Shown here piece after piece: positions 34,911-49,090 of a stretch of DNA of 64,000 nt (positions are counted from its first letter, which is position 1; every line of letters begins with the position of its first letter). The stretch spans positions 1 to 64,000 of the forward strand of contig JACQWY010000002.1 of assembly GCA_016209015.1 (NCBI GenBank). The letters are read 5' to 3'. The notes under the pieces were generated by a model. The model was given only the letters and a program-made list of their open reading frames with translations. It made no database searches and had not been told where the DNA came from. The DNA is from Gammaproteobacteria bacterium. Its GTDB lineage: Bacteria > Pseudomonadota > Gammaproteobacteria > Ga0077536. A program made the position numbers and the translations under genes.

Positions 34911-34966
34911 TCGTCACGCAATCTTCACACCCGATAAATCATCCCGTCACGCCACCCCGGTATACC
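34911..34966 (+). promoter_or_regulatory. Candidate Pho box and -10 for the PhoX-like gene
   Basis: Four 7-bp units at exact 11-bp steps: TCGTCAC (34911), TCTTCAC (34922), GATAAAT (34933, weak) and CCGTCAC (34944). The PhoB consensus is CTGTCAT repeated with 4-bp spacers. A -10-like TATACC at 34961-34966 starts 10 nt after the last unit, the spacing of classical PhoB promoters where the box replaces the -35. Confidence 0.65.
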
Positions 34967-35105
34967 TCACACGGCCCGCGGTCGCGCGCCGCACCGAAGC
35001 AGTCGGCGCGGACGGAGGGCTGGATTCCGGCGACCTGGGCACACACGAAATCTCTTTGGCGCTCCGCCCGCGGAGCTCACCACTGCAACCTCGAGGAATA
35101 CAACG

Positions 35106-36671
35106 ATGATCGAATTTCGCATGCGCAAGATCCCCGCGGCTGTCGCCGCGGTGGTGATCGCGGCGCCGCTCGCGGCCCACGCCGGGACCGGCCCGAGCTC
35201 CTCCGCCACACCCTATCTCCTGGCCACGCAGCCCGGCTATACGGTGACCTCCCTCCTGACGGTCGGCGATTCCGTCGGGGGCTACAGGCTCGGCGGCATT
35301 CCGGACGGGCTCGGCGCCTATGACAACGGCAACGGGACTTTCACGCTGCTCGTGAACCATGAGTGGAGCGCAGGCGCGGGCAGCGCGCACGGAGTGCTCG
35401 GCGCCGGGGCCTACGTCTCGAAGTGGATCGTCGACAAGAGCACGCTGAGCGTCGTCAGCGGCTCGAACCTCATCCAGAGCGTCGCGACCTGGAACAGCGC
35501 GACGCAGGCGTCGGACCCGCTCGTCTCCACGCCCGCCGCGATCGCCTTCAACCGCTTCTGCTCGGCTGATCTGGCCGCCACTTCGGCGCTCTCCTACCTC
35601 GACACGAACACGAATACGACGTACGGCACCACCGAGCGCCTGTTCATGACCGGCGAGGAAGGGGGCACCGGCCGCGCGGTCGCCACGATCGTGAACTCGG
35701 GCGAAGCTTACGTGCTCGGCAAGTTCAATCTCGCCTCGAACGGCTCGGGAGGCACCGCGGTCGGCGGCTGGGAGAACATCCTCGTCAACCCGCTGAGCCA
35801 GATGAAGACCGTCGCCGTCGGCACCAACGACGGCGGCACGGGGATCATGACCAACGCGCTCGCCGTCTATGTCGGCACGAAGACGGAGACGGGCTCCGAG
35901 GTCGACAAGGCCGGTCTCACGAACGGCGTGACGAAGTTCGTGAACGTCGCCGGCAATCCGGCGGAAATCGTCAACACGACCAGCCGCGCGACGAACATCG
36001 TCGACGGCACGCGCTTCACGCTGAGCGATACCGCGTCGACGACGTTCTCGCGCCCTGAAGACGGCGTGTGGAATCCGGGCAACGCGAACCAGTTCTTCTT
36101 CGTGACGACGGACCGCCTCGACCAGGTCGCGGAAGGCCTCGGCACGCAGGTCGGCCGCACCCGCCTGTGGAGCATGACGTTCGACGACATCACGAACCCG
36201 GATGCGGGCGGCAAGATCGACATGCTCGCCGAAGGCACCGGCCTGGACGGTAACATGTGGGACAACATGACCGTGGACGTCAGCGGCCACCTCATCCTGC
36301 AGGAAGACCCGGGCAATACGCCGCACAACGGCAAGGTGTGGGATTACGACCCGGCCACCGGCACGATGACGCAGATACTGAAGGCCGACCCGGCCCGCGT
36401 CGGAGACGTCGGCCTCGCGGCGACCGCCCCGTTCAACGTCGACGAAGAATCGTCCGGCGTCATCGACGTCACCGACATCTTCGATGCGAGCCGTCAGAGC
36501 GGCCGCTACTACCTCCTCACCTCGCAGATGCACTACGCGACCGGCGATCTCGCCACGGTCGAAGGCGGTCAGTTGCTGCTCGTCCACGCCGTGCCCCTGC
36601 CGGGCGCCGTGTGGCTGCTCGGCTCCGCACTCGCCGGCCTCGGCGGCCTGCGCCGCCGCATCGGCTGCTAG
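35106..36671 (+). CDS. PhoX-like protein with PEP-CTERM sorting signal
   Basis: Exported protein of 521 residues. A signal peptide (about 6-26, ending AAHA) is followed by a beta-propeller-like domain related to the PhoX/DUF839 alkaline phosphatases: LLVNHEW, FNRFCSADL, FMTGEEGG, SRPEDGVW and LQEDPG resemble the metal-binding and active-site segments of that family. The C-terminus VPLPGAVWLLGSALAGL followed by RRR is a PEP-CTERM-type sorting signal, cut by an exosortase. So it is probably a cell-surface or matrix-bound phosphatase. A Pho-box-like promoter lies upstream, a strong terminator follows. Catalytic activity is inferred, not shown. Confidence 0.82.
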   Translation: MIEFRMRKIPAAVAAVVIAAPLAAHAGTGPSSSATPYLLATQPGYTVTSLLTVGDSVGGYRLGGIPDGLGAYDNGNGTFTLLVNHEWSAGAGSAHGVLGAGAYVSKWIVDKSTLSVVSGSNLIQSVATWNSATQASDPLVSTPAAIAFNRFCSADLAATSALSYLDTNTNTTYGTTERLFMTGEEGGTGRAVATIVNSGEAYVLGKFNLASNGSGGTAVGGWENILVNPLSQMKTVAVGTNDGGTGIMTNALAVYVGTKTETGSEVDKAGLTNGVTKFVNVAGNPAEIVNTTSRATNIVDGTRFTLSDTASTTFSRPEDGVWNPGNANQFFFVTTDRLDQVAEGLGTQVGRTRLWSMTFDDITNPDAGGKIDMLAEGTGLDGNMWDNMTVDVSGHLILQEDPGNTPHNGKVWDYDPATGTMTQILKADPARVGDVGLAATAPFNVDEESSGVIDVTDIFDASRQSGRYYLLTSQMHYATGDLATVEGGQLLLVHAVPLPGAVWLLGSALAGLGGLRRRIGC

Positions 36672-36686
36672 TCTTCCCTTTCCGAT

Positions 36687-36715
36687 ACCGTGCCCGGCTC
36701 CGCGCCGGGCACGGT
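36687..36715 (+). terminator. Terminator hairpin after the PhoX-like gene
   Basis: Perfect 12-bp stem, ACCGTGCCCGGC (36687-36698) with GCCGGGCACGGT (36704-36715), 5-nt loop, 15 nt after the stop. It may also serve the convergent small gene ending at 36757. Confidence 0.7.
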
Positions 36716-36756
36716 CCCTCCCGAAATTCCCCCGGCCCCGATTTCGCGAGCGCTTT

Positions 36757-37026
36757 CTATTGGATGTGCCGACGCAGGCGGCGCATCGATCGCGTGTTCG
36801 CAAAGCTGATCGTGGCTGCTCCCTCGAGACGCGCGATGGTCTCCGTCACCCGCGATCGAAGTTCCTTCCGCGACGCGGCCTCGACACAGACGTCCCAGGC
36901 ATCGCAGTGGCCGAACCAGCGCCCGCTCGGCAGCGCGGTGAATTCCCAGCGTTCGTAAGCGTAGGACCAGGCGGCGCGCGCCCAGCGCCTGCGGATCCGG
37001 ATGCGCCGCGCCGTACGCGAGTTCAT
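36757..37026 (-). CDS. Small basic protein coupled to a glycosyltransferase gene
   Basis: An 89-residue Arg-rich protein of unknown function. Its ATG overlaps the stop of the upstream glycosyltransferase gene as ATGA, which argues for real, coupled translation. The middle segment contains RWFGHCDAWDVCVEAASRKELRSRV; no known family was recognised. It would be the second gene of the Pho-box-preceded glycosyltransferase transcript. Confidence 0.6.
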   Translation of the reverse strand: MNSRTARRIRIRRRWARAAWSYAYERWEFTALPSGRWFGHCDAWDVCVEAASRKELRSRVTETIARLEGAATISFANTRSMRRLRRHIQ

Positions 37027-38063
37027 TCCGCGGACGCCGCGCTAGTCGTGCCCATGGGCACGCGGCGGACGATCGGCGCGAGATGGCCCTCGAACGCCGC
37101 CGTGCACGCCGCCCAGGTGTAGCGGGCCGCGTGCTCGATACAGTCGCTCGGCCGCATCGACAGCGCGCGCGCAATCGCCGTCGCCAGATTCTCGCCGAGA
37201 CAACCCGTCACGCCGTCAGCGACGACGTCGAGCGGCCCCTGCACCGGATACGCCGCGACCGGCAGACCGCAGGCCATCGCTTCGAGCAGCACGAGGCCGA
37301 ACGTGTCGGTGCGACTCGGGAAGACGAAGACGTCGCCGCCCGCGACGTGGCGCGCGAGATCGCGTCCGGACTTCGCGCCGAGAAAGCGGCATTCCGGATG
37401 GCGCGCGCGCAGCCGTTCGAGATCCGGACCGTCGCCGATCACGAGCTTCGTGCCGGGAATCGACGCCTCGAGGAAGGCCTCGATGTTCTTCTCGATCGCC
37501 ACGCGTCCCATGTAGACCACGATCGGCCGCGGCCAGTCGTACACGACGGCCTCGTGCGGATTGAAGATGTCGGTGTCGACGCCGCGCGACCACAGGCGCA
37601 GGTTCGCGAAGCCGCGCGCTTCGAGCTTCGCGAGCTGCGTCGGCGTCGGCACGAGCGTGCGCGCGGCGCGGGCGTGGAAGCGCCGGAGCCAGGCGTAGGT
37701 CCAGGCGACCGGCACCGGCGCGCGCAGCCGCAGGTATTCCGGGAACTGGGTGTGGAACGACGTCGTGAACGGCAGTCCGCGGCGCGCGCAATAGCGATGC
37801 GCCGCCTGGCCGAGCGGGCCTTCGGTCGCGATGTGGATCGCTTCCGGCACGAAGGCATCGAGCGCGGCGCGCACCTTCGCACCGGGCAATACCGCGAGCC
37901 GGATACTCGGATAAGTCGGGCACGGCACGGTGCGGAACCCGTCCGGCGTGATGACACGCACGTCGTGGCCGCGGCGCGCGAGCCACTGTCGCGTCGTGTC
38001 GAGCGTGCGCACGACGCCGTTGACCTGTGGATGCCAGGCGTCGGTGATGATCGCGATGCGCAC
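37023..38063 (-). CDS. Family 4 glycosyltransferase, candidate glycolipid synthase
   Basis: GT-B fold glycosyltransferase (346 residues). The N-terminus MRIAIITDAWHPQVNGVVRTL and the donor-site motif FVFPSRTDTFGLVLLEAMACGLPVAA (Glu-x7-Glu type) are typical of retaining family 4 enzymes that make glycosyl-diacylglycerols or mannosylated lipids, including the Agt-type enzymes of phosphate-starved bacteria. A paralogue is encoded at 40840-41841 on the other strand. It is divergent from the OlsF-like gene with Pho-box-like repeats facing both ways. Sugar donor and acceptor are inferred from context. Confidence 0.85.
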   Translation of the reverse strand: MRIAIITDAWHPQVNGVVRTLDTTRQWLARRGHDVRVITPDGFRTVPCPTYPSIRLAVLPGAKVRAALDAFVPEAIHIATEGPLGQAAHRYCARRGLPFTTSFHTQFPEYLRLRAPVPVAWTYAWLRRFHARAARTLVPTPTQLAKLEARGFANLRLWSRGVDTDIFNPHEAVVYDWPRPIVVYMGRVAIEKNIEAFLEASIPGTKLVIGDGPDLERLRARHPECRFLGAKSGRDLARHVAGGDVFVFPSRTDTFGLVLLEAMACGLPVAAYPVQGPLDVVADGVTGCLGENLATAIARALSMRPSDCIEHAARYTWAACTAAFEGHLAPIVRRVPMGTTSAASAE

Positions 38064-38105
38064 GGAACCTCCGCAGTGATGGCGCGCACAGCCTCGTCCT
38101 GCTCT

Positions 38106-38145
38106 GTTGCCGCGGCGTGACGTCCGCGTGACCGCGCGATGACGA
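38106..38145 (-). promoter_or_regulatory. Candidate Pho box for the glycosyltransferase gene
   Basis: On the minus strand, units TCGTCAT (38145-38139), CGGTCAC (38134-38128) and ACGTCAC (38123-38117) at exact 11-bp steps, then a weaker CGGCAAC (38112-38106). The last unit ends about 43 nt before the ATG. No convincing -10 was found. Confidence 0.65.
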
Positions 38146-38163
38146 AGGCGCTCGAGCAGGGTC

Positions 38164-38203
38164 TTGTCACGATCGCGTCAAGCAAACGACACATGGCTTA
38201 CAC
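38164..38203 (+). promoter_or_regulatory. Candidate Pho box for the olsF-plcP-like operon
   Basis: Units TTGTCAC (38164), GCGTCAA (38175), ACGACAC (38186) and CTTACAC (38197), stepping 11 bp. The first two match the PhoB core TCA position well, the last two weakly. It faces the OlsF-like gene, opposite to the box at 38106-38145. Confidence 0.55.
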
Positions 38204-38252
38204 ACCGTGCGCGCTCAATGACGGCGGCCCGAACAGGAGACGCCCGAGCATC

Positions 38253-40055
38253 ATGAGCGCCACGCCTGCCATCCCGGCACGTTCCACTGCCCTCTCCGTC
38301 AAGTCGTATCTGCCCCCGCATCTGTCCGCCCGTCCCGCGCTGGTCCGCATGATCGATGCGGCGCTCGGCCTGTCGCGGCTCGCCGAGGGCTACGAGCGGC
38401 TGCCGGCAGCGCAGGATCCGCGCGCGTTCGCGGAGCTCGCGCTCGCGGCACTCGGCGTGACCGTGGAGGCGGCGCCGGCGGAGCTCGCGCGTGTGCCGGG
38501 CATGGGGCCTTGCCTCGTCGTCGCGAATCATCCGCACGGCGGGCTCGACGGCCTCGCACTCGTGAGCCTGCTGCTCCAGGTGCGTCGCGACGTGAAGATC
38601 CTCGCGAATCACTTCCTCGCCGGGTTCTCCGAATTGCGGCCGCTGTTCCTCGAGGTCAACCCCTTCGGCGGCGACGATGCCGCGCGCCGCAATCCGCACG
38701 CCGTACGCGCCGCGCATCGCTGGCTCGGCGACGGCGGGCTCGTGCTGATGTTTCCGGGCGGCGAAGTCTCGAGCCTCGATCTGGCGACGCGCGAAGTCAT
38801 CGATCCGCCGTGGCAACACGGCGCGGCCCGCCTCGTACGCAAATCGGGCGCGAGCGTCGTACCCGTGCACCTCGACGGCCGCAACAGCGCGCTGTTCCAG
38901 CTCGGCGGGCTCGTGCATGCGAAGCTGCGCACGGCGCTGCTCGTGCGCGAAATGCTGAAGCCGAAGCGCGCGCGGCTCGGCGTGCGCGTCGGCGAGCCCA
39001 TCGCCGCCGCGGATCTCGCGACGCTGGGCTGCGATGCTGCGGTGACCGACTATCTGCGCTGCCGCACCTACCTCCTGCGCGAGACGGGCCGCGCGGCGAC
39101 CGCGACGACGCGTCAGCCGCGCCTCGCACCGCTCGCAGTGCCTGTCGACCCGGGGACGCTCGCTGCCGACGTCGCCGCACTGCCGGTATCGCAGCGTTTG
39201 ATCGAAAGCGGCAAATTCAGTGTCTGGTATGCAAGCGCAGCCGGGCTGCCCGCCGTGCTGCCGGAGCTCGGCAGGCTGCGCGAGCTGAGCTTCCGCGCCG
39301 TCGGCGAGGGCACGGGGCGCGCCGTCGACCTCGACGAATACGATGCGCACTACACGCACCTCTTCGTGTGGGACGCGAGCGTCTCCGCCGTCGTCGGCGG
39401 TTACCGGCTCGGCGACGCGAACGCGATCCTCGCGACGCACGGCGCGCGCGGGCTCTACGTGCAGTCGCTGTTCCGGCTCTCGGCACGCCTGCAACGCGAG
39501 CTGCGCTCGGGCCTCGAGCTCGGCCGCTCGTTCGTGCGCCCCGAATACCAGAAGAGCTTCTCGCCGCTGCTGCTGCTGTGGAAGGGCATCGCGGCCTATG
39601 TCGCGCGGCATCCGCGCTACCGCTACCTGTTCGGGCCGGTGAGCATCAGCAACGACTACCATCCGGCGTCGCAACGCCTGCTCGTGCAGTTCCTCGCCCG
39701 CCATCACTACGCGCACGAGCATGCGGACGAAGTGAAGCCGCGCAATCCGCTGAAGCGCTGGCGGCGCGAGGAGGCGGCGCTCGCGGCGATCGGCGATCCG
39801 GATTCGCCGCTGCTCGCCGGACTGCTGCAGACGATCGAGAACGACGGCAAGGGTGTGCCCGTGCTGCTGCGGCAGTATCTGAAGCTCGGCGGGAAGATCC
39901 TCGGCTTCAACGTCGATCCCGCGTTCAGCCACGTCGTCGACTGCCTGCTGCTCGTCGATCTGCCGGCGACGCGCCGCGAGGTGCTCGTGAAGTACATGGG
40001 GCGCGACGGGGCTGCGGAGTATCTCGCGGCGTGCGGCAGGGGGGCGGCTGCCTGA
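38253..40055 (+). CDS. Bifunctional ornithine-lipid synthase, OlsF-like
   Basis: Fusion of two acyltransferases (600 residues). The N-terminal half is a lysophospholipid-acyltransferase (OlsA/PlsC-like) domain with the variant motif NHPHGGLDG at residues 92-100 and the second motif FPGGEVSS. The C-terminal half (about 330-590) is an OlsB/hemolysin-like GNAT domain that would N-acylate ornithine with a 3-hydroxyacyl chain (LQRELRSGLELGRSFVRPEYQ). This is the domain order of OlsF from Serratia and relatives. Ornithine lipids replace phospholipids when phosphate is scarce. Start ATG at 38253 follows AGGAGA at 12-nt spacing; in-frame ATGs upstream lack a ribosome site. Confidence 0.88.
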   Translation: MSATPAIPARSTALSVKSYLPPHLSARPALVRMIDAALGLSRLAEGYERLPAAQDPRAFAELALAALGVTVEAAPAELARVPGMGPCLVVANHPHGGLDGLALVSLLLQVRRDVKILANHFLAGFSELRPLFLEVNPFGGDDAARRNPHAVRAAHRWLGDGGLVLMFPGGEVSSLDLATREVIDPPWQHGAARLVRKSGASVVPVHLDGRNSALFQLGGLVHAKLRTALLVREMLKPKRARLGVRVGEPIAAADLATLGCDAAVTDYLRCRTYLLRETGRAATATTRQPRLAPLAVPVDPGTLAADVAALPVSQRLIESGKFSVWYASAAGLPAVLPELGRLRELSFRAVGEGTGRAVDLDEYDAHYTHLFVWDASVSAVVGGYRLGDANAILATHGARGLYVQSLFRLSARLQRELRSGLELGRSFVRPEYQKSFSPLLLLWKGIAAYVARHPRYRYLFGPVSISNDYHPASQRLLVQFLARHHYAHEHADEVKPRNPLKRWRREEAALAAIGDPDSPLLAGLLQTIENDGKGVPVLLRQYLKLGGKILGFNVDPAFSHVVDCLLLVDLPATRREVLVKYMGRDGAAEYLAACGRGAAA

Positions 40056-40060
40056 ACACG

Positions 40061-40843
40061 GTGGAGAAATCCGCGCGCCGCAAGCAGCGCTATCGCAGCG
40101 TCTGGATCTCCGACGTCCACCTCGGCACGGCGGGCTGCAAGGCGGAATACCTGCTCGACTTCCTGCGTCATCACGAGTGCGAGCAGCTCTATCTCGTCGG
40201 CGACATCATCGACGGCTGGCGCCTGAAACGGCGCTGGTACTGGCCGCAGAGCCACAACGACGTCATGCAGAAAGTGCTGCGCAAAGCGCGCAAGGGCACG
40301 AAGATCACTTACGTCGTCGGCAATCACGACGAGGCACTGCGGCAGTTTCTCGGCTTGTCCTTCGGCGAGATCCCGATCGTCGAGGAAGCCGAGCACGTGC
40401 TCGCCGACGGCCGGCGGCTGCTCGTCGTGCACGGCGACCGCTACGATGCCGTCGTCCAGCGCGCGCGCTGGCTCGCGCTGCTGGGCGATCACCTCTACGC
40501 GTTCATCCTGAGGGTGAATCACTGGTACAACCACGTCCGCGCGCGCTGCGGCCTGGGCTACTGGTCGCTCTCGCAGTATCTGAAGCACCGCGCGAAGAAT
40601 GCCGTGGCCTACATCTACGATTTCGAGACTGCGCTCGCACGGGAAGCGCGCGAGCGCGGCTACGACGGGGTGGTCTGCGGCCACATCCACAAGCCGGGGA
40701 TCCGCGAGATCGAAGGCGTGCTCTATTGCAACGACGGCGACTGGGTGGAAAGCCTCTCGGCGCTCGTCGAGACGCCGGACGGGCGGCTCGCGATCGTCGA
40801 GTGGCGCGAGCGTGGCGTCGAACCGCTCGAGCTCGCCGCGTGA
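40061..40843 (+). CDS. Metallophosphoesterase, PlcP/LpxH-like
   Basis: Calcineurin-like phosphoesterase (260 residues) of the COG2908 group. The two-metal motifs are intact: SDVH (Asp18, His20), GDIID (Asp48), GNHD (Asn88, His89) and VCGHIH. This group includes UDP-diacylglucosamine hydrolases and PlcP, a phospholipase C that strips headgroups from phospholipids under phosphate limitation. The sequence is longer than E. coli LpxH and its neighbours are an ornithine-lipid synthase and a glycosyltransferase, so PlcP-like activity, giving diacylglycerol, is favoured. Start is GTG at 40061, 5 nt after the OlsF stop; its stop overlaps the next GTG start. Confidence 0.82.
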   Translation: MEKSARRKQRYRSVWISDVHLGTAGCKAEYLLDFLRHHECEQLYLVGDIIDGWRLKRRWYWPQSHNDVMQKVLRKARKGTKITYVVGNHDEALRQFLGLSFGEIPIVEEAEHVLADGRRLLVVHGDRYDAVVQRARWLALLGDHLYAFILRVNHWYNHVRARCGLGYWSLSQYLKHRAKNAVAYIYDFETALAREARERGYDGVVCGHIHKPGIREIEGVLYCNDGDWVESLSALVETPDGRLAIVEWRERGVEPLELAA

Positions 40844-41841
40844 AGCTCCTGGTCGTCACCGATGCCTGGCGGCCGCAGGTCAACGGCGTCGTGACGACGC
40901 TCGCGACGCTCGCCGATCAGCTCGCGCCGCGCGGCTGGAGCACCGAGTTCGTCCACCCCGGCGAGTTCACGTCCTTCCCCTGCCCGACCTACCCCGAGAT
41001 CAAGCTGAGCGTCCTGCCGTACCGGCGGCTCAGCGCGCGCATCGCCGCCGCGCGGCCGGACGCACTGCACATCGCGACGGAAGGACCGCTCGGCGCGGCG
41101 GCGCGACGCTACTGCCTCGAACGCGGGCATCGCTACACGAGCGCCTATCACACGCGCTTTCCGGAATACGTCCGCGCCCGCACGCGGCTGCCGCTCGCCG
41201 CGACGTACCGCTGGCTGAGACGCTTCCACGATCCGGCTCAGGCGCTGATGGTGCCGGCACCGGCGGTGCGGCGCGATCTGCTCGCCCGCGGCTTCACGAA
41301 CACGGTGCCGTGGACACACGGGATCGACCTCGAGGTCTTCACGCCCGGACATCGCGAGCGGCTCGCGACGGCGCGGCCGATCTTCCTCTACGTCGGACGG
41401 GTCGCTATCGAGAAGAACATCAGTGCCTTCCTCGAGCTCGATCTGCCGGGCTCGAAATGGGTGGTCGGCGCGGGCCCGCTGCGCGCGAAGCTCGAACGCG
41501 CCCACCCCGACGTGCACTTCGCAGGCATCCAGACGCCGACCGAGCTCGCGCGCTTCTATCGCGCGGCGGACGTCTTCGTCTTCCCGAGCCTGACGGACAC
41601 CTTCGGACTCGTGATGCTCGAGGCGCTCGCCTGCGGCACGCCCGTCGCGGCCTATCCGGTCGGCGGGCCCGTCGACGTGATCGGCACGAGCCCCGCCGGC
41701 GTGCTCGACGCGGATCTGCGTTCCGCCTGCCTCAGCGCGCTCGACATCCGGCGCGAGACCGCGCGCGCCCACGCCGAGCGGTTTTCGTGGGCGGCGGCGG
41801 TCCTGCAATTCGAACGCTATCTCGCGCCGTTCGGCGCCTGA
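40840..41841 (+). CDS. Family 4 glycosyltransferase, Agt-like
   Basis: Second GT-B family 4 glycosyltransferase (333 residues), clearly paralogous to the one at 37023-38063 (shared DAWxPQVNGVV, HIATEGPLG, VGRVAIEKNI, VFVFPSxTDTFGLV). The start GTG overlaps the stop of the PlcP-like gene (GTGA), so the two are coupled. Diacylglycerol released by a PlcP-type enzyme is the usual acceptor for Agt-type enzymes, giving mono- or diglycosyl-diacylglycerol. The donor sugar (glucose, glucuronate, galactose) cannot be told from sequence. Confidence 0.86.
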   Translation: MKLLVVTDAWRPQVNGVVTTLATLADQLAPRGWSTEFVHPGEFTSFPCPTYPEIKLSVLPYRRLSARIAAARPDALHIATEGPLGAAARRYCLERGHRYTSAYHTRFPEYVRARTRLPLAATYRWLRRFHDPAQALMVPAPAVRRDLLARGFTNTVPWTHGIDLEVFTPGHRERLATARPIFLYVGRVAIEKNISAFLELDLPGSKWVVGAGPLRAKLERAHPDVHFAGIQTPTELARFYRAADVFVFPSLTDTFGLVMLEALACGTPVAAYPVGGPVDVIGTSPAGVLDADLRSACLSALDIRRETARAHAERFSWAAAVLQFERYLAPFGA

Positions 41842-41842
41842 C

Positions 41843-42022
41843 TCACACCACGTCCTCGAGCTCGTCGCGGATTTCGCGCGCGAGATCCGCGCTCAGGCGC
41901 AGGCGCAGATTCTGGCCCTCGCCGTCGATCAACACGATGAGAATCGCGCCGGACTTCTCCGCGCGCAGCTCGGCGAGGATCTCCAGCGTCTCGCCGTCCG
42001 TACCGCCAATCAGATTCGTCAT
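41843..42022 (-). CDS. Small acidic protein, unknown function
   Basis: A 59-residue protein starting MTNLIGGTDGETLEILAELR, with a strand-like centre GAILIVLIDGEGQNLRLRL and an acidic C-terminus. A strong ribosome site (GGAGGG) precedes the ATG at 42022. The gene stops 1 nt after the convergent glycosyltransferase stop. I recognise no family. It shares its upstream region with the divergent HAD gene; only one isolated GTCAC unit is seen there, so Pho control is not claimed. Confidence 0.65.
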   Translation of the reverse strand: MTNLIGGTDGETLEILAELRAEKSGAILIVLIDGEGQNLRLRLSADLAREIRDELEDVV

Positions 42023-42168
42023 GGATAGCCCTCCGCGTGATGAATGCGCGGGATCGTAGAGCGCGAATCTTGCGTCGCCGTGACGGGTGGAAACGCGTCG
42101 TCCCGCAACGGCAACATCGTGGTCGCATACTCGATCGCGAATCGCCGTCGCGCGGAGGACAGCGCGCC

Positions 42169-42984
42169 ATGCACACTCACCCCCATCGCCCCGAGCGCAA
42201 GCGCCTGCTCGTCGTGCTCGATTTCGACGGCTTCCTCGTCAATTCCTACGCATTGATCCGCGAAACGTTCGCGGCGTTCGGTCTCGACGTCGGCGACGAG
42301 GAGCGCTTCCGCAACCGCCGCAAGTTCCTCAAGTACCTCGGCGGCGGCAAGGAGTTCCTGACGAACCTCGTGCGCTTCGCGCTGCCGAAGGAGCGCCGCA
42401 TCCGCGAAGTGCTGACCGAGGTCTATCGTACCGAGGGCCTCGTGTATCCGGAGTTCCGCGACGTCGTCAATCGTCTGATCGCCTCACCGCGCGTCCACTG
42501 CGGCGTGGTGAGCCGCAATTTCACGCTCGCGCCCGGGCCGACGATGCGCTGCGTGTTGAAGCGCAGCGGCATCGCGGAAGCCGAGCTCGATTTCGTCATT
42601 CCGATACCGGCCGGGACACCGAAAGACGAGACGCTCGCCGCGATGCGCTCCTCGCGCTATCACGAATGCCTGCTCGGCGCTGACGAAATCTCCGACTACC
42701 GGGCCGCGACGGCCGCCGGCTACGAAGTGCTGATGGCGAGCTACGGCTTCGATCATCGCAATCGGCTGATCGACCGTGGCGACGTGCCGGGCGCGCTCAT
42801 CTACGACGATCCCGCGACGCTCGCCACGGAGCTCGCCGATCACGTCGCGCCGTACGTCGATCCGCCGCGGCGCCGTGCGCTGTCGTTGCCACCGCCTGGC
42901 GCGGACTTCGGTGTGAACGCCGTCACAGCCGCTGCGGCCCACGAGCTCACCGCGTTCAGACGACATTCAGACAGCCCGGCTTAA
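42169..42984 (+). CDS. HAD-superfamily hydrolase
   Basis: Haloacid-dehalogenase-like protein (271 residues). Motif I is LDFDGFLVNS with nucleophile Asp18 and acid Asp20; an alpha-helical cap follows, then motif II/III candidates around GVVSRN and CLLGADEISD. It resembles phosphoglycolate-phosphatase-type HADs, so a phosphatase acting on a small phosphorylated molecule is likely. Start ATG follows GGAGGA. It lies inside the phosphate-starvation island, which would suit a phosphatase, but has no clear Pho box of its own. Confidence 0.75.
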   Translation: MHTHPHRPERKRLLVVLDFDGFLVNSYALIRETFAAFGLDVGDEERFRNRRKFLKYLGGGKEFLTNLVRFALPKERRIREVLTEVYRTEGLVYPEFRDVVNRLIASPRVHCGVVSRNFTLAPGPTMRCVLKRSGIAEAELDFVIPIPAGTPKDETLAAMRSSRYHECLLGADEISDYRAATAAGYEVLMASYGFDHRNRLIDRGDVPGALIYDDPATLATELADHVAPYVDPPRRRALSLPPPGADFGVNAVTAAAAHELTAFRRHSDSPA

Positions 42985-43026
42985 TCTCACTCCCACATCA
43001 CGCAAGCCTGCCGAACCGCGCTGCGG

Positions 43027-43066
43027 GTGTCGCCGGACCTTCACGGGACTGGCATCCCACGGTCAC
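43027..43066 (+). promoter_or_regulatory. Candidate Pho box before a small gene
   Basis: Units GTGTCGC (43027), CCTTCAC (43038), CTGGCAT (43049) and CGGTCAC (43060) at exact 11-bp steps. Two units match the core TCA exactly. It ends 44 nt before the ATG at 43111. Confidence 0.5.
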
Positions 43067-43110
43067 GCGGACCGGGCAGACTGCGCCACACGACGAGAGG
43101 AGCGTACATC

Positions 43111-43317
43111 ATGAGCAAGCGACAGCACGCCTACGAATTCCCGCTCGACCCGACGCTCCTCGACGAGTTGAGCGCATGGCGCGACAAAGCGCCGGAGCCG
43201 GCGCATCCGCTGCGCGTAGCGCAGTACGCGGCGCGGCTCGCCCACGCCGCGCGGGGATTCGGGTTGCGCCTGGCGCGACGCCCGCACGGCAGCCAGTTCG
43301 GCGGCTGCGCGCGCTGA
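43111..43317 (+). CDS. Small basic protein, unknown function
   Basis: A 68-residue protein with a mixed N-terminus (MSKRQHAYEFPLDPTLLDEL) and an Arg/Ala-rich C-terminal helix. A good ribosome site (GAGAGGAG) precedes the ATG. Pho-box-like repeats lie upstream. I recognise no family; it could be a membrane-associated or regulatory peptide. Confidence 0.55.
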   Translation: MSKRQHAYEFPLDPTLLDELSAWRDKAPEPAHPLRVAQYAARLAHAARGFGLRLARRPHGSQFGGCAR

Positions 43318-43432
43318 GATCTCTTCGCCACGCGCCGCGGATCCGCGGCGCGCGAGCTCGCTGCCTGCTGTCGCGGGCTGATCACCCGCTCGCCGGTTTC
43401 CCACATCGTCAGCCCGCCGTTCGATCCGGGAG

Positions 43433-43468
43433 CAAGGGGAAGGAGTCATCGCGAACCCCTTCCCCTTG
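43433..43468 (-). terminator. Terminator hairpin after a PEP-CTERM gene
   Basis: 11-bp perfect inverted repeat CAAGGGGAAGG (43433-43443) and CCTTCCCCTTG (43458-43468), 14-nt loop, 10 nt past the stop of the minus-strand PEP-CTERM gene. Confidence 0.55.
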
Positions 43469-43478
43469 GTGCCGGAGA

Positions 43479-44258
43479 TCAGCTCGACCGCCGGCGGAGC
43501 GCGGTCAGCGCGAACGAGAACGCCGAAGCGAACAGCGCGAAAGAACCGGGTAGCGGGACCGGATGGATGTCGGACATCACGAGGACGGCTTTCGGCGAGA
43601 GGAGCTGCGACGTGAGATCCTGAACGAGTCCGGTCTCTTCCAGGAAGCTGAGCTTCGCCGTGCTCACGAGGGGCACGGTCCAGGTCGCGTCCGTCGTGAC
43701 GTTCACGTGACCGAGTGCCGCGTCGATCGCCGAGACGACACTGCTCTTCACGCTGGCCGACACGCCCGCGAAACCGAGCGTACTCTTGCAGGTGTTCCAC
43801 AGCGCGCTCATCCCCGACAGATCGGCGTTGAACGTCCCCGCGTCGGAATCCGTGACCATGAGCCAGGCATCGAACGACGCGGAGACGAACGGAATGGCGG
43901 GCGCGTGGACGTGGATGACCGCGTCGCTGAGCTGACGAGGTCCGCTCGTGACACCCGGCGCGTAAGGCTCGATGAGCCCGACGAGCCCGATGTCGAACGG
44001 CGTCTTGATTCCGGACGGAAGGCCGAGACCGCTCGTGTAAGTGAACATCCACGCCTGGGGATTACCCTGGGCGTCGAGATCGACATCGTTCGGCCCCTCG
44101 TAGAGTGTGCCGGTGAACAACACGGGATCGGCGCTGGTGCCCGCCCCGATCTGCATCGTGTCCGACACCGCCAGGGCGTGCGCGCTGCCGGCGGCGGCGA
44201 GCAGCACGGCTCCCGCGGCCAGCGGCACGTGCCGGCGAGGGTTCGCAATTGAAAGCAT
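43479..44258 (-). CDS. PEP-CTERM sorting-signal protein, unknown function
   Basis: Exported protein (259 residues). A signal peptide (about 10-32, ending GSAHA) is followed by a domain I do not recognise (VLFTGTLYEGPNDVDLDAQ and so on) and by a C-terminal PEP-CTERM-like signal, VPLPGSFALFASAF plus a second hydrophobic run and RRRSS. Exosortase would cut it and attach it outside the cell. The ATG at 44258 follows AAGGAG. Pho-box-like repeats lie about 100 nt upstream. Unlike the other two PEP-CTERM proteins here, no phosphatase resemblance was seen. Confidence 0.75.
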   Translation of the reverse strand: MLSIANPRRHVPLAAGAVLLAAAGSAHALAVSDTMQIGAGTSADPVLFTGTLYEGPNDVDLDAQGNPQAWMFTYTSGLGLPSGIKTPFDIGLVGLIEPYAPGVTSGPRQLSDAVIHVHAPAIPFVSASFDAWLMVTDSDAGTFNADLSGMSALWNTCKSTLGFAGVSASVKSSVVSAIDAALGHVNVTTDATWTVPLVSTAKLSFLEETGLVQDLTSQLLSPKAVLVMSDIHPVPLPGSFALFASAFSFALTALRRRSS

Positions 44259-44358
44259 GAAGATACTCCTTGATTGACTGCACGTTTCATCGATGAAGCG
44301 GCGTGCGTTCCCGCGCTGGGCGAGACCGCACGCCGCGCGTGAAGCGTGCGGCACGAAG

Positions 44359-44398
44359 TTGACGTGATGGGGTCGCGGCGATAACGGTTTGGTGACGT
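44359..44398 (-). promoter_or_regulatory. Candidate Pho box for a PEP-CTERM gene
   Basis: On the minus strand: ACGTCAC (44398-44392), CCGTTAT (44387-44381), GCGACCC (44376-44370, weak) and ACGTCAA (44365-44359), in 11-bp steps. The pattern closely resembles the upstream region of the phytase-esterase-like PEP-CTERM gene at 49 kb. Confidence 0.55.
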
Positions 44399-44464
44399 GT
44401 CGAGCGCCGCACGATGAAGACACGAGCGCGGCGCGACGACGACCTGCACGGGCGACGAGAAAAG

Positions 44465-44500
44465 GAGAGCTCTTTCCTCAGGCTCGAAGAAAGAGCTCTC
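44465..44500. repeat. 12-bp inverted repeat, stem-loop
   Basis: GAGAGCTCTTTC (44465-44476) and GAAAGAGCTCTC (44489-44500) are perfect complements around a 12-nt loop. It lies between a small minus-strand gene ending at 44590 and a Pho-box-like promoter, so it may be the terminator of that small gene. Confidence 0.55.
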
Positions 44501-44589
44501 GAGGCCGGACATCGCCGGCACATCAGCAAGCTGCACCGGCGATGGAGCGCATGTTGAGCATCGGGCATGACACGACGCGGTCGGTACGA

Positions 44590-44775
44590 TTAAGCTTTCG
44601 TGAACGGCCGCCGTTCGGAGCGCGCATCCACAAGTTCACCCGGCGTCACGATTCGCGCCGCAGCGAAGTCCAGAATGCGCTTGGTGCACGCGACTCGTGC
44701 GACCGCAACCGCGAGGCGACCGATCCGCGAGCCGGGCTGATAGAGCTCCGACGCACAGCGTTCGACGTCCGACAT
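44590..44775 (-). CDS. Small protein, unknown function
   Basis: A 61-residue protein beginning MSDVERCASELYQPGSRIGR. A strong ribosome site (GGAGGAG) lies 5 nt before the ATG at 44775, and a two-unit Pho box with a well-placed -10 lies further upstream. The composition (helical, Ala/Val/Arg-rich) is not diagnostic. I recognise no family. An inverted repeat at 44465-44500 could end its transcript. Confidence 0.5.
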   Translation of the reverse strand: MSDVERCASELYQPGSRIGRLAVAVARVACTKRILDFAAARIVTPGELVDARSERRPFTKA

Positions 44776-44806
44776 GTCGCTCCTCCGATCCGCGTTTCCC
44801 GCAGGC

Positions 44807-44840
44807 ATCACAGCGCAATGCCATGACGGTCCGGTGAACT
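44807..44840 (-). promoter_or_regulatory. Candidate Pho box and -10 for the 61-residue gene
   Basis: On the minus strand AGTTCAC (44840-44834) and CCGTCAT (44829-44823), 11 bp apart; a -10-like TGTGAT (44812-44807) starts 10 nt after the box, the classical PhoB spacing. Confidence 0.55.
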
Positions 44841-44867
44841 GCCGCGCTGGCCGCCGTCACGCGATCC

Positions 44868-44885
44868 GGTTCATTGAGATGTCAC
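44868..44885 (+). promoter_or_regulatory. Candidate Pho box for the 116-residue gene
   Basis: GGTTCAT (44868) and ATGTCAC (44879) with a 4-bp spacer, facing the gene at 44927. The -10 (CAAGCT near 44896) is poor. Confidence 0.45.
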
Positions 44886-44926
44886 AAGCCAGGCGCAAGC
44901 TGCGCGCGACTGACCGGGGAACGAAC

Positions 44927-45277
44927 ATGCTCAGAATCGAGTTGATCAAATGCGGGAGCCGGGAATTCGTGGAATACACCGGCACGCGGGACGATTTGCT
45001 GGCGAGCGGAGTCGCGGAGCCGCGCATGTTCCCGTGCGTCGGTTACGTGCGTCTCTACCCCGCGGAGGCCCGCCGCTGGAACAGCGCAGGCTATTTCCAC
45101 ACGACGCGCCGCGGCGAGCTGTTCGTCATTCGGCGCTGGCGGCACTGGCAGCTCGCACCCGCGCAACAGGCACGGTTGCGTGCGCTCGTCGCCTCGCTGA
45201 GTCCGGGCAGTGGCGACGGGCGACCGCTCGCCCGCGTCATCTCGCTGGCGGAAGAACGTCGTCGTCGGGAGGCATGA
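44927..45277 (+). CDS. Hypothetical protein
   Basis: A 116-residue basic protein starting MLRIELIKCGSREFVEYTG. It has a predicted beta-rich first half (GYVRLYPAEARRWN, GELFVIRRWRHWQL) and an Arg-rich C-terminal helix. No family recognised. The start at 44927 is preferred because an earlier in-frame ATG (44879) lies within the Pho-box-like site. It converges on the 57-residue membrane protein gene, 18 nt between stops. Confidence 0.55.
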   Translation: MLRIELIKCGSREFVEYTGTRDDLLASGVAEPRMFPCVGYVRLYPAEARRWNSAGYFHTTRRGELFVIRRWRHWQLAPAQQARLRALVASLSPGSGDGRPLARVISLAEERRRREA

Positions 45278-45295
45278 GCGCGCGATGACGCGCGC

Positions 45296-45469
45296 TCAGT
45301 GTTTCGGATTCTTCTCGCCGGGTCGCCGTTTCGCCGCGGGCGTGGCCACCGTGGCGTCGTGAGCCGCGGTCCGGCGGCGCGCGCGCTGCAGCGCTATCGT
45401 CTCGATGAGCCCCCAGACGAGCGCGCCTCCGATCGTGATCACGGGCGCGGTTACCTGCCTGAGCTGCAT
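45296..45469 (-). CDS. Small single-helix membrane protein
   Basis: A 57-residue protein with one membrane segment (about residues 7-27, VTAPVITIGGALVWGLIETIAL) and a long basic cytoplasmic tail rich in Arg, Ala and Lys. A strong ribosome site (GAGGAGG) precedes the ATG at 45469, and one of the best Pho-box matches of the window lies 75-92 nt upstream. No family recognised. Confidence 0.65.
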   Translation of the reverse strand: MQLRQVTAPVITIGGALVWGLIETIALQRARRRTAAHDATVATPAAKRRPGEKNPKH

Positions 45470-45543
45470 GCCATCCTCCTCATGTCGCGTTAAACCGGAA
45501 CCGCCATTGCAAGCCCCGCGCGTGGCGCACGGAAGTCGGCGCC

Positions 45544-45561
45544 GTGACGATTGCATGACAC
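45544..45561 (-). promoter_or_regulatory. Candidate Pho box for the 57-residue membrane protein gene
   Basis: On the minus strand GTGTCAT (45561-45555) and TCGTCAC (45550-45544), exactly 11 bp apart with a 4-bp spacer; GTGTCAT matches the consensus CTGTCAT at six of seven positions. Confidence 0.6.
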
Positions 45562-45631
45562 GAGGCGACGCGGCGCTCCTCGCGTGTCCGCGCTCCGCTA
45601 TGCTGCGCGTGTCTCCTTGCGGACACCGGGG

Positions 45632-46657
45632 ATGATTCCAGGCGTGCTCTCCCAACTCGCCGAGCTCGAGGCCATCCTCGAGGCCGGACGCGGACACCTC
45701 GAAACGGAAATCCTGTGCACCGTGGCGACGGCCGGCACCACGCTGCCCGTGCACGCCGTCGCGCTCGGCGGCCGCGACCCGGCGCTGCCGGCCGTCGGCT
45801 TCTTCGGCGGCGTGCACGGGCTCGAGCGCATCGGCACGGAAGTCGTACTCGCGTATCTGCAGAGCCTCGTGACCCGGCTCGACTGGGACAGCGGCTTGCA
45901 CGATGCCCTGGCGCGCGTGCGGCTCGTATTCATGCCGCTCGTCAATCCGGGCGGCATGTGGCTCGGGACGCGGGCGAATCCGCAAGGCATCGATCTCATG
46001 CGCAACGCACCGGTCGAAGCCCGGGAGAAAGTGCCCTTCCTCGCCGGCGGCCAGCGCCTGAGCAGCCGCCTGCCCTGGTACCGCGGGGCCGCCGGGGCGC
46101 CGCTGGCTGCCGAAGCACGGGCGCTGTGCGACTTCGTCTCGCGCGAGCTCCTGGTGCGCCCGTTCAGCATCGCCGTCGACTGCCACTCCGGCTTCGGCGT
46201 GCACGATCGGATCTGGTTTCCCTTCGCCCACACCCGCGAGCCGATACCTCACCTGCCCGAGCTGCATGCGCTGTTCGACGTCTACGATCGCACGCATGCC
46301 CACCACGACTACCTCGTGGAGCCGCAGAGCGCGCAGTACCTCGCGCACGGCGACCTCTGGGATCACCTCTATCTGCGGGCGGCGACGGAGCCGCGGAGGA
46401 TTTTCCTGCCGCTCACGCTCGAGATGGGCTCGTGGCGCTGGGTGAAGAAGAATCCGCGACAGCTCTTCTCGCGCGACGGCATGTTCAATCCGCTCGTCGC
46501 GCACCGCCGGCAGCGCGTCTTGCGCCGGCATCCGGGCTGGCTCGATTTCGTGGCGCGTGCCGCGGCGGGCTGGGAGCGCTGGGTGCCGCAGGGCGCGGCG
46601 CGCGCGGAGCACCTCGCGCTCGCGAACGCGCGCTGGTACGGGACGGCCGCGACGTGA
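45632..46657 (+). CDS. M14-family zinc carboxypeptidase-like protein
   Basis: Zinc hydrolase (341 residues) of the M14/succinylglutamate-desuccinylase group. Zinc ligands are in GGVHGLERIG (HxxE) and in the later DCHSGFG (His); a catalytic Glu is likely in LTLEMGSW. Substrate-binding Arg/Asn pairs occur around LGTRANPQGIDLMRN. No signal peptide was seen, so it is cytoplasmic. It may remove amino acids or acyl groups from small molecules. Start ATG at 45632 has a poor ribosome site. Its stop overlaps the next gene start (GTGA). Confidence 0.78.
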   Translation: MIPGVLSQLAELEAILEAGRGHLETEILCTVATAGTTLPVHAVALGGRDPALPAVGFFGGVHGLERIGTEVVLAYLQSLVTRLDWDSGLHDALARVRLVFMPLVNPGGMWLGTRANPQGIDLMRNAPVEAREKVPFLAGGQRLSSRLPWYRGAAGAPLAAEARALCDFVSRELLVRPFSIAVDCHSGFGVHDRIWFPFAHTREPIPHLPELHALFDVYDRTHAHHDYLVEPQSAQYLAHGDLWDHLYLRAATEPRRIFLPLTLEMGSWRWVKKNPRQLFSRDGMFNPLVAHRRQRVLRRHPGWLDFVARAAAGWERWVPQGAARAEHLALANARWYGTAAT

Positions 46658-47460
46658 CGACCTGGGTGCTGCTGCGCGGATTGATGCGCGAAACACGCCA
46701 TTGGGGCGACTTCCCGACGCGGCTCGCCGCGGCGCTCGGCGGGGCGAACGTCGTCGCGATCGATCTGCCGGGCAACGGACGCGCGAATGCACTCCCGAGC
46801 CCGACGCGCGTCGAGGCGATGGTCGATTACGCGCGACGCGAGCTCGCCGCCCGCGGCTGCACGCCGCCCTACGTGCCCGTGGCGCTCTCGCTCGGCGGCA
46901 TGGTCGCCGCGTGCTGGGCAGCGCGCCACGATGGCGAGCTCGCGGGTGGGGTCCTGATCAACACGAGCCTGCGGCCGTTCAGCCCGTTCTACCGGCGGCT
47001 GCGGCCGGTGTGCTATCCGACCCTGGCGCGGCTCGCGCTGTGCGGCGGCGCTGACGCGCGCTGGGAGAATGCCATTTTCGACATCACGAGCAGGCGGCCG
47101 GCACTCCGCGACGCCTGTCTCGGAGCCTGGATTGCCTGGCGCGGCGAGCATCCCGTCAGCCGCAGGAATGCATTGCGCCAATTGCTTGCCGCGGCACGCT
47201 ATGCGGCGCCCGTGACTGCGCCGGCCTGCGCCCTGCTCGTGCTTGCGAGCGGTGGCGACGCGCTCGTCGATCCGGCCTGTTCGCGCACACTCGCCGCGCG
47301 CTGGAACACGGCCTATGCGGAACATCCGGACGCCGGACACGATCTGCCGCTCGACGACGCGGCATGGGTGGTGGAGGAAATCGTGAAATGGTCGCGCGCG
47401 GCGGGCGTGCCGCGCGCGACCGGGACGGCGGGGATCAGGCGCGACGACGGCGGGCGTTGA
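46654..47460 (+). CDS. Alpha/beta-fold hydrolase
   Basis: Alpha/beta hydrolase (268 residues). The nucleophile elbow is ALSLGGM with a catalytic Ser, the acid is probably the Asp in ASGGDALVDPACS and the base the His in DAGHDLPLDD. The start is GTG at 46654, overlapping the stop of the M14 gene. Its 3' end overlaps the convergent PEP-CTERM gene by 26 nt. Substrate unknown; BioH-like esterases and lysophospholipases are related folds. Confidence 0.78.
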   Translation: MTTWVLLRGLMRETRHWGDFPTRLAAALGGANVVAIDLPGNGRANALPSPTRVEAMVDYARRELAARGCTPPYVPVALSLGGMVAACWAARHDGELAGGVLINTSLRPFSPFYRRLRPVCYPTLARLALCGGADARWENAIFDITSRRPALRDACLGAWIAWRGEHPVSRRNALRQLLAAARYAAPVTAPACALLVLASGGDALVDPACSRTLAARWNTAYAEHPDAGHDLPLDDAAWVVEEIVKWSRAAGVPRATGTAGIRRDDGGR

Positions 47461-48874
47461 CGAGGCCGGCGAGCGCCGAGCCCATCAACCACACGGCGCC
47501 CGGCACCGGCACGGCCGAAATGTTCTGCGCCGCGAACGTCGGCAGATCGGAGGCCTTGATCGCGAAGACGTAGAAGTTGTTCGGGCCGGCGACGGCGGCG
47601 ACGAAGTCGTTGTCGTTCGCGACCCACAGCGTGTGGAAGAGCTCGCCGTTGTCCGTGATGTCCTGGCCGAAGGCGAGGCCTTCGATCTTCGCCGGCACGT
47701 CGGTCGGCGCGATGCCGTGGGCGCCGAGCGCGGCGACTACATCGAGGACGGGGCTCGCGCTCTTCGCGACGCGGGTGAACGTGGCGCCCGCGGCGCTGAG
47801 GCTCGCGATGCCCGTGACGTCCGTCGCGCCCGTGATGTCGACCTTGAAGAGCTGTTTCACGGCGGCGGCCGAGCTGTCGCCGAGGCCCTTGCCGTCCCGT
47901 TCGTCGACCAGGAATTCGTGGTCGTTCAAGGCGACGATTTCACTCACTCCGGAGCCCGTCGTCAGCTTGTAGGCATACTCGTGCGTGGTGCCGGTCGCGA
48001 TGTCGATGGTCACGAGCCGTACGTCCTTGCCCTTGTTCGTGGCGTCCTGCTCGAGCGGCGCCTGCATGATCCCGACGAGCGTCGTGCCGTCGGGCGTGAT
48101 CGCGAGCCCTTCCATGCCCTTGTTCGCGACACGGCCGACGGTGTTGCCGGCGATTTCGGTGTTGCCGACCGGGCTCAGGTTCGTCGCCGCGAGATTCGCG
48201 GGCAGGTCGAACGTGCGGATGCGCTGGCCGGTCGCGCGATCGAACTGGTAGACGTAGGGACCGTACTCGTCGGAGACGAACACGCTCTTGCCATCGTTCG
48301 AGACGCGGATGCCTTCCGGATCGAGACGGCCGTTCGCGGGATTCGTCGAGGGCAGGCTCGCGTCGAAATTGTCGGAGCGGCCGGTGAAGTAGTACGCGCT
48401 GGCACTGTTCTGCGCCGGCGCGCCCGATCCGACACCGAGACCGCTGCCCGTGCCGTACGTCAGCGGCGTCGGGCTCGACAGCAGCGTCGTCCGGGTGAGC
48501 ACGGGCGTGAGCGTATACGGAAGGCCACCCGAGGCAGCCGCCGTCAGCGTCATGTTCACCGTCTGGAAGCGCGAAATGTAGCTGACCGTGTCGTCGAGCA
48601 GCGGGTTGTAGGCCGTCGCATTCGGACCGCGATCGGGCAGCGCGAGATACGTCGAGCCACCGGCGTAGGCGAAGGCGGAGCCGATGCCGCCGAGGAGGTT
48701 CGCAGGCAGGCCGTTCTCGAGCGTGCCCGTGAGGCCCGAGAGATCGGCATAGGATCCTGCGCTGCTGCTGGTGAGGCTGCCGATGGCGATCAAATCGTAA
48801 GAGGAGAGCGCGTGCGCCGCGGGGGCGCCGAGCGCGGCCGCGACGGCCGCCGCAACGATGGCGTTGTGTTTCAT
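47435..48874 (-). CDS. Phytase-type esterase-like PEP-CTERM protein
   Basis: Exported protein (479 residues). A signal peptide (about 1-22, ending AHA) precedes a beta-propeller of the 'esterase-like activity of phytase' family (PF13449), recognised by LALPDRGPNAT, LDPEGIRVSNDGKSVFVSDEYGPYVYQFD and NKGMEGLAITPDGTTLVG. The C-terminus VPVPGAVWLMGSALAGL plus RRRRA is a PEP-CTERM signal. It is probably surface-anchored and may hydrolyse organic phosphates. Four strong Pho-box units with a good -10 lie upstream. Its 3' end overlaps the convergent hydrolase gene by 26 nt. Confidence 0.85.
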   Translation of the reverse strand: MKHNAIVAAAVAAALGAPAAHALSSYDLIAIGSLTSSSAGSYADLSGLTGTLENGLPANLLGGIGSAFAYAGGSTYLALPDRGPNATAYNPLLDDTVSYISRFQTVNMTLTAAASGGLPYTLTPVLTRTTLLSSPTPLTYGTGSGLGVGSGAPAQNSASAYYFTGRSDNFDASLPSTNPANGRLDPEGIRVSNDGKSVFVSDEYGPYVYQFDRATGQRIRTFDLPANLAATNLSPVGNTEIAGNTVGRVANKGMEGLAITPDGTTLVGIMQAPLEQDATNKGKDVRLVTIDIATGTTHEYAYKLTTGSGVSEIVALNDHEFLVDERDGKGLGDSSAAAVKQLFKVDITGATDVTGIASLSAAGATFTRVAKSASPVLDVVAALGAHGIAPTDVPAKIEGLAFGQDITDNGELFHTLWVANDNDFVAAVAGPNNFYVFAIKASDLPTFAAQNISAVPVPGAVWLMGSALAGLVNARRRRA

Positions 48875-48964
48875 TCTTTTCACCTCGAGGATGCTGTAAA
48901 AGGGGCGGCCGACGATCCCCGGCCGCGCTGCGATCGCCGCCTGCCTGACGTTCGATCGTCCGTG

Positions 48965-49020
48965 ACAGTACCGAGGCGCCGTGACCGACGGATGGCGGCG
49001 ACATGACGGCTCGGTGACGG
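48965..49020 (-). promoter_or_regulatory. Candidate Pho box and -10 for the phytase-esterase-like gene
   Basis: On the minus strand four units in exact 11-bp steps: CCGTCAC (49020-49014), CCGTCAT (49009-49003), CCGCCAT (48998-48992) and CGGTCAC (48987-48981). A -10-like TACTGT (48970-48965) starts 10 nt after the last unit. The clearest Pho-box array in the window. Confidence 0.7.
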
Positions 49021-49090
49021 GCCTGTAATAATCGCGGCACGAAGCGGCACACCGCGGCGCTTCCGGATGGCCTCTCACCATGATCCGACG

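Follow-up and report, generated by a model that had tools for sequence, protein, structure and literature searches.

PhoB binds CTGTCAT-type repeats with an 11-bp period, which replace the −35 element of its promoters. One of the known systems closest to the locus reported here is PlcP–Agt remodelling under PhoBR, described for Phaeobacter, SAR11, Pseudomonas aeruginosa and Methylosinus (PMC4796936, PMC8528852, PMC9239053), and PlcP–Agt genes with Pho boxes and phosphate induction have been reported from P. aeruginosa (PMC8528852) and from marine bacteria (PMC4796936). The published PEP-CTERM regulons considered here depend on RpoN, as in the case of a floc PEP-CTERM gene (PMC9850573), or on an exopolysaccharide-linked regulator, as in the PEP-CTERM/exosortase regulon of Desulfovibrio (DVUA0057; PMC3333781). 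Here we analysed a stretch of 64,000 nucleotides (nt) from a Gammaproteobacteria bacterium (contig JACQWY010000002.1 of assembly GCA_016209015.1, positions 1–64,000; hereafter the window), in which nine Pho-box-like repeat arrays lie between 34.9 and 49.0 kb. We conclude that this 14-kb stretch is very probably a PhoB-activated phosphate-starvation island.

The locus resembles PlcP–Agt systems in having a plcP-like gene directly before a GT4 glycosyltransferase gene, a Pho box ahead of them, and two GT4 genes in total, as with Agt1 and Agt2 of P. aeruginosa. It differs in that the operon starts with an olsF-like gene, that one GT4 gene is transcribed divergently from this operon, and that genes for phosphatase- and phytase-like proteins with tails of PEP-CTERM-like type belong to the same locus. 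The arrays share with the gammaproteobacterial Pho box the 7-bp units, 4-bp spacers, 11-bp steps and position upstream of genes, and the genome encodes a PhoB ortholog beside pst and phoR; however, the usual box has two to three units and AT-rich spacers, whereas up to four units and GC-rich spacers are found here, and nine promoters within 14 kb are unlike the usual gammaproteobacterial PhoB regulon. Like PEP-CTERM/exosortase systems, the locus has proteins ending in a VP(L/V)PG tail, a hydrophobic stretch and arginines, with exosortases encoded in the genome; unlike the PEP-CTERM regulons cited above, it is predicted to be under PhoB control. PlcP–Agt genes under Pho boxes are thus already known, and it is the concentration of boxes and their pairing with exosortase-type surface phosphatases that appear to be new. 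In the paper collection searched, none names PEP-CTERM together with PhoX or with phosphate limitation, which is only weak evidence that the association is undescribed.

All nine arrays lie upstream of genes and point at them, and in every one two to four 7-bp units follow each other at steps of exactly 11 bp; the positions and orientations given in the preliminary description proved correct. The ranks given for them come from a scoring of 869 upstream regions, taken from the 1.64 Mb (29%) of the 5.7-Mb, 65-contig genome that the ranking covered. On the forward strand, arrays form the promoters of the PhoX-like gene (34911–34950; TCGTCAC/TCTTCAC/GATAAAT/CCGTCAC; rank 4) and of the olsF-like/plcP-like/agt-like operon (38164–38203; TTGTCAC/GCGTCAA/ACGACAC/CTTACAC; rank 10), and precede the small-protein gene at 43111 (43027–43066; GTGTCGC/CCTTCAC/CTGGCAT/CGGTCAC; rank 6) and, as a pair of units, the gene at 44929 (44868–44885; GGTTCAT/ATGTCAC; rank 15). 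On the reverse strand, they belong to the GT4 gene GT_A (38106–38145; TCGTCAT/CGGTCAC/ACGTCAC/CGGCAAC; rank 3), the gene at 43479 (44359–44398; ACGTCAC/CCGTTAT/GCGACCC/ACGTCAA; rank 8) and the phytase-like gene (48981–49020; CCGTCAC/CCGTCAT/CCGCCAT/CGGTCAC; rank 2), with pairs before the open reading frame (ORF) at 44590 (44823–44840; AGTTCAC/CCGTCAT; rank 14) and in the promoter of the gene at 45296 (45544–45561; GTGTCAT/TCGTCAC; rank 7). Several arrays include a decayed unit, and some units are degenerate (e.g. GTGTCGC, GCGTCAA, CCGCCAT). The stretch also contains genes without a box, namely those for TetR and HrpB, a gene for a protein of 59 amino acids (aa) at 41843, and the 45632 operon.

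The scoring used a 7-bp unit matrix trained on 42 pstS and phoB boxes of same-family genomes, with the island sequence excluded, and recorded for each region the highest-scoring series of units in 11-bp register. The native pstS (CTGTCAT-cacc-CGGTAAT-aaac-TTGTCAT) and phoB (CTTTCAT-aaac-ATGTCAC) promoters ranked 1 and 5, and the nine island promoters took ranks 2, 3, 4, 6, 7, 8, 10, 14 and 15. They still held ranks 2–15 when the boxes of this genome were left out of the training, and ranks 2–25 and 2–18 after training on pstS or phoB boxes alone, respectively. At spacings of 8, 9, 10, 12, 13 and 14 bp the signal was gone, with the nine sites spread over ranks 6–382. Because the sites had originally been picked by this very pattern, their clustering and not their rank alone constitutes the test. 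Sixteen regions scored 12 or more, and these comprised 9 of the 14 upstream regions of the island and 7 of the 855 others (expected in the island, 0.26; hypergeometric P ~3e-14). A shuffled control, of the general kind proposed in the preliminary description, agreed with this: when the 14 island regions were put through 500 dinucleotide shuffles, 0.12 regions on average (maximum 2) reached 12, versus the nine observed. The impression by eye that the pattern is confined to the island was also borne out, no other region of the window reaching even 10. Across the whole genome, the strict pattern YNGTCAY-N4-YNGTCAY had 16 matches, many of them intragenic, versus 2 for the reversed control. Counting of pairs over the whole sequence, genes included, was discarded because it is confounded by codon periodicity, and the analysis was therefore limited to upstream regions. 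A matrix built from Escherichia coli boxes and the native pstS and phoB boxes had given a similar trend and was replaced by the 42-box family matrix.

A single clear PhoB ortholog is encoded at C57:56644–57384 (350 bits, above the cut-off of 296), next to phoR, pst genes, phoU, ppk and ppx. Together with the motif derived from the pstS and phoB promoters of relatives and a gene content fitting phosphate famine, this ortholog supports the earlier proposal of one PhoB regulon island. The genome further encodes two exosortases (204 and 173 bits; cut-off 105.6) and, besides PhoB, eight regulators with a Trans_reg_C domain.

The same scoring bears on the readings that compete with PhoB control. GC-rich DNA often contains GTCAC-type words, the sites were chosen by eye and several units are imperfect, all of which would fit arrays that are chance matches to a relaxed pattern; given the shuffled regions, the loss of signal at other spacings and the rest of the window without a region at 10 or more, we give this account practically no credence. 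OmpR-family regulators often bind tandem sites about 10–11 bp apart, and one of the eight further Trans_reg_C regulators, such as a CreB-like protein recognizing TTCAC repeats, might occupy the arrays in place of PhoB, all the more as TTCAC occurs in some units and the spacers are unlike those of the pstS and phoB boxes. However, most units carry GTCA and not TTCA, a matrix made from pstS and phoB boxes only places the sites beside the genome's own pstS and phoB, and the genes are those of phosphate starvation, so that control by such a regulator seems improbable. Somewhat less doubtful, though still unlikely, is that PhoB governs only a part of the stretch, for instance the lipid operon, GT_A and the PhoX-like and phytase-like genes, with the boxes of the small ORFs and of the 43479 gene being weak or unused. 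Of the nine, the unit pairs at 44823 and 44868 score lowest (12.8), the 61-aa ORF at 44590 was not called as a gene, and orthologs of the small proteins were not found in the relatives' loci examined; yet both pairs still rank 14–15 of 869, with the best −10-like hexamer exactly at 10 nt.

Several observations weigh against the PhoB reading. The family's pstS and phoB promoters prefer a gap of 10–11 nt between the last unit and the −10 element, and the preliminary description had reported a −10-like hexamer exactly 10 nt after three of the boxes. This was borne out only in part: the spacing holds at five of the nine sites, the promoters of GT_A and of the 43479 and 45296 genes have no such hexamer, and a −10 element is missing at three or four of the nine. 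The hexamers are TATACC (34961–34966), 10 nt after the array of the PhoX-like gene; TGTGAT (44807–44812), exactly 10 nt beyond the 44823–44840 pair; CAAGCT, 10 nt on from the 44868–44885 pair; and TACTGT (48965–48970), 10 nt beyond the phytase array; CTCAAT (38214–38219) and CAGACT (43077–43082) lie downstream of the 38164–38203 and 43027–43066 arrays. Among the nine promoters, one or more stand before a small ORF whose status is uncertain, and the phytase boxes of three relatives are weak (chain scores of 5.9–8.3). A 22-bp model that also takes in the spacer and the AT-rich flank gives the island sites only about 4–14, versus 25–28 for the best pstS and phoB boxes. An AT-rich spacer and flank are typical of strong Pho boxes and are not known to be essential. 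The family's pstS and phoB boxes have them, whereas the island boxes lack them and have GC-rich spacers; the island boxes may therefore be weaker, with the extra units partly compensating, and are perhaps used late in starvation. As a detector of these sites, the rigid 22-bp two-unit matrix was poor.

PhoB control of the whole stretch remains the reading followed below, and its strongest functional clue comes from two genes that the preliminary description had overlooked, the PlcP-like gene and the second GT4 gene. The operon (38253–41841, forward strand) begins with a gene for an OlsF-like bifunctional ornithine-lipid synthase (38253–40055; NF052615, E 2e-125), with an N-terminal acyltransferase and a C-terminal OlsB-type GNAT domain; as the nearly full-length match stays below the equivalog cut-off (419 vs 620 bits), the protein is called OlsF-like only. 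It is followed by a PlcP-like, LpxH-related metallophosphoesterase gene (40049–40843), for which LpxH as an identity was ruled out because the genome's true LpxH is encoded separately at C28:159387, and by the second GT4 (Agt-like) gene (40840–41841), whose nearest matches are betaproteobacterial genes that likewise follow plcP directly. The operon's PlcP and GT4 proteins (40049–41841) are closest to those of betaproteobacterial plcP–agt pairs (69% and 61% to Cupriavidus), which suggests that the operon was acquired. The divergent gene GT_A (37023–38063, reverse strand) encodes a GT4 glycosyltransferase of the Agt type that is conserved in the family (61–73% to most same-family orthologs), and its homologs elsewhere sit directly behind plcP. 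From these affinities, the lipid operon was probably gained horizontally, whereas GT_A is ancestral in the family. A profile search of genome contigs with the GT4 alignment returned 80 loci in which plcP and agt are repeatedly adjacent, and the equivalent search with the OlsF-like protein gave no match. The olsF neighbourhoods of relatives are without the island and their olsF promoters mostly without boxes, so that box control of olsF is not ancestral. Downstream of the operon, a gene for a HAD-like hydrolase (42169–42984, forward strand) is linked to GT_A and PlcP in relatives and has a weak box here (6.8).

Three secreted proteins share an end made of VP(L/V)PG, a hydrophobic stretch and arginines, a feature likewise missed at first. 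The PhoX-like protein (35106–36671, forward strand; 521 aa) has the PEP/VPLPA-CTERM-like tail VPLPGAVWLLGSALAGL-RRR, which at 24 bits is just under the VPLPA-CTERM cut-off of 25.35; five of the six members of its ortholog alignment match Pfam PhoX (PF05787; best 3.3e-12) and the window protein does not, and it is named PhoX-like only. The phytase-like protein (47435–48874, reverse strand) matches PF13449 (1.9e-54; 185.9 bits vs a cut-off of 27.6), and its PEP-CTERM-like tail scores 16.6 bits, just under the cut-off of 20.7. Searches of PDB sequences with the profiles of these two proteins gave no matches. The third, PEP43479 (43479–44261, reverse strand), belongs to no family and ends in the PEP-CTERM-like tail VPLPGSFALFASAFSFALTALRRR. 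Overlapping the phytase array, CGGTGACgggcCTGTAATaatc at 49012–49029 on the forward strand faces hrpB and scores 13.6 on the 22-bp model with a poor first unit; it may be due to chance or be a divergent weak box. The remaining box-bearing genes encode small proteins without a family, namely proteins of 68 aa (43111–43317, forward strand) and 116 aa (44929–45277, forward strand), a probable single-span membrane protein of 57 aa (s45296; 45296–45469, reverse strand) and a candidate protein of 61 aa (44590–44775, reverse strand) with weak coding evidence, which was missed by the gene caller and added by hand.

Elsewhere in the genome, the strict pair TAGTCATcgttTTGTCAC (G000:C32:59240–59257, L269) is intergenic and lies 45 bp before a gene for a phosphate-selective porin O/P (PF07396, 3.4e-54), an expected Pho target that was found without having been sought. 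At G000:C58:898–968 (L279, L280), two strict pairs, one on each strand and separated by about 50 bp, sit between a gene for a 175-aa protein and one for a PEP-CTERM-like protein about 400 bp away. Outside the island, the top ten includes a single non-pho region, G000:C39:279894–279922 (CGGTGAT/CTATAAT/CCGTCAT), which overlaps the start of a 277-aa ORF (279921–280754).

Related genomes within the family carry plcP, agt, HAD and phytase genes together, in combinations that vary, and boxes precede plcP in six relatives as well as several agt, HAD, phytase and PhoX-like orthologs. In these loci 32 of 203 upstream regions scored 12 or more, versus 1 of 169 in control loci, for which we used OlsF neighbourhoods from genomes of the family; the arrangement thus recurs among relatives, although what it contains differs. 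Other high scorers were genes for BtaA-type DUF3419 proteins, PhoD, a porin and further phytase-like proteins with the same tail. BtaA-type DUF3419 genes lie near plcP in seven loci (L202, L205, L207, L208, L209, L210, L217), most with strong boxes, and in those relatives betaine lipid is the predicted product instead of ornithine lipid. In the relative L215, seven promoters within 16 kb carry boxes, around phytase-like, HAD, GT4, cNMP-binding, phospholipase-C C-terminal-domain and porin genes; by its predicted boxes, this locus is a second and different Pho island.

Based on these gene families and promoters, we infer PhoB binding and phosphate induction and propose the following course. When phosphate is exhausted, PhoR would phosphorylate PhoB, which would bind the tandem 7-bp units along a single face of the DNA helix and, by recruiting RNA polymerase, stand in for a −35 element. 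The PlcP-like phospholipase C would remove phospholipid head groups, the two GT4 enzymes would glycosylate the resulting diacylglycerol, and the OlsF-like enzyme would make ornithine lipid, so that phosphorus-free lipids replace phospholipids. The PhoX-like, phytase-like and third secreted proteins would be exported for scavenging outside the cell, their tails suggesting sorting by exosortase to a surface location. Three or four small proteins, to which no role is assigned, would be a third output.

For this uncultured gammaproteobacterial family, it is an evenly balanced proposition that the Pho regulon is in part organised as a modular island. In such an island, genes for lipid remodelling would be clustered with those for surface phosphatases and phytases sorted by exosortase, each with a PhoB array of its own; species would exchange the contents (here ornithine lipid and glycolipid; in relatives BtaA-type betaine-lipid genes, porin or PhoD), and the small orphan proteins would be new Pho-regulon members. 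The PhoB reading makes a locus of mostly unannotated genes a testable phosphate-starvation programme, and its nine neighbouring promoters with two to four units each provide material for asking how the PhoB threshold depends on the number of units and the make-up of the spacers. If true, exosortase/PEP-CTERM sorting, the use of whose cargo is mostly obscure, would be tied to phosphate scavenging.

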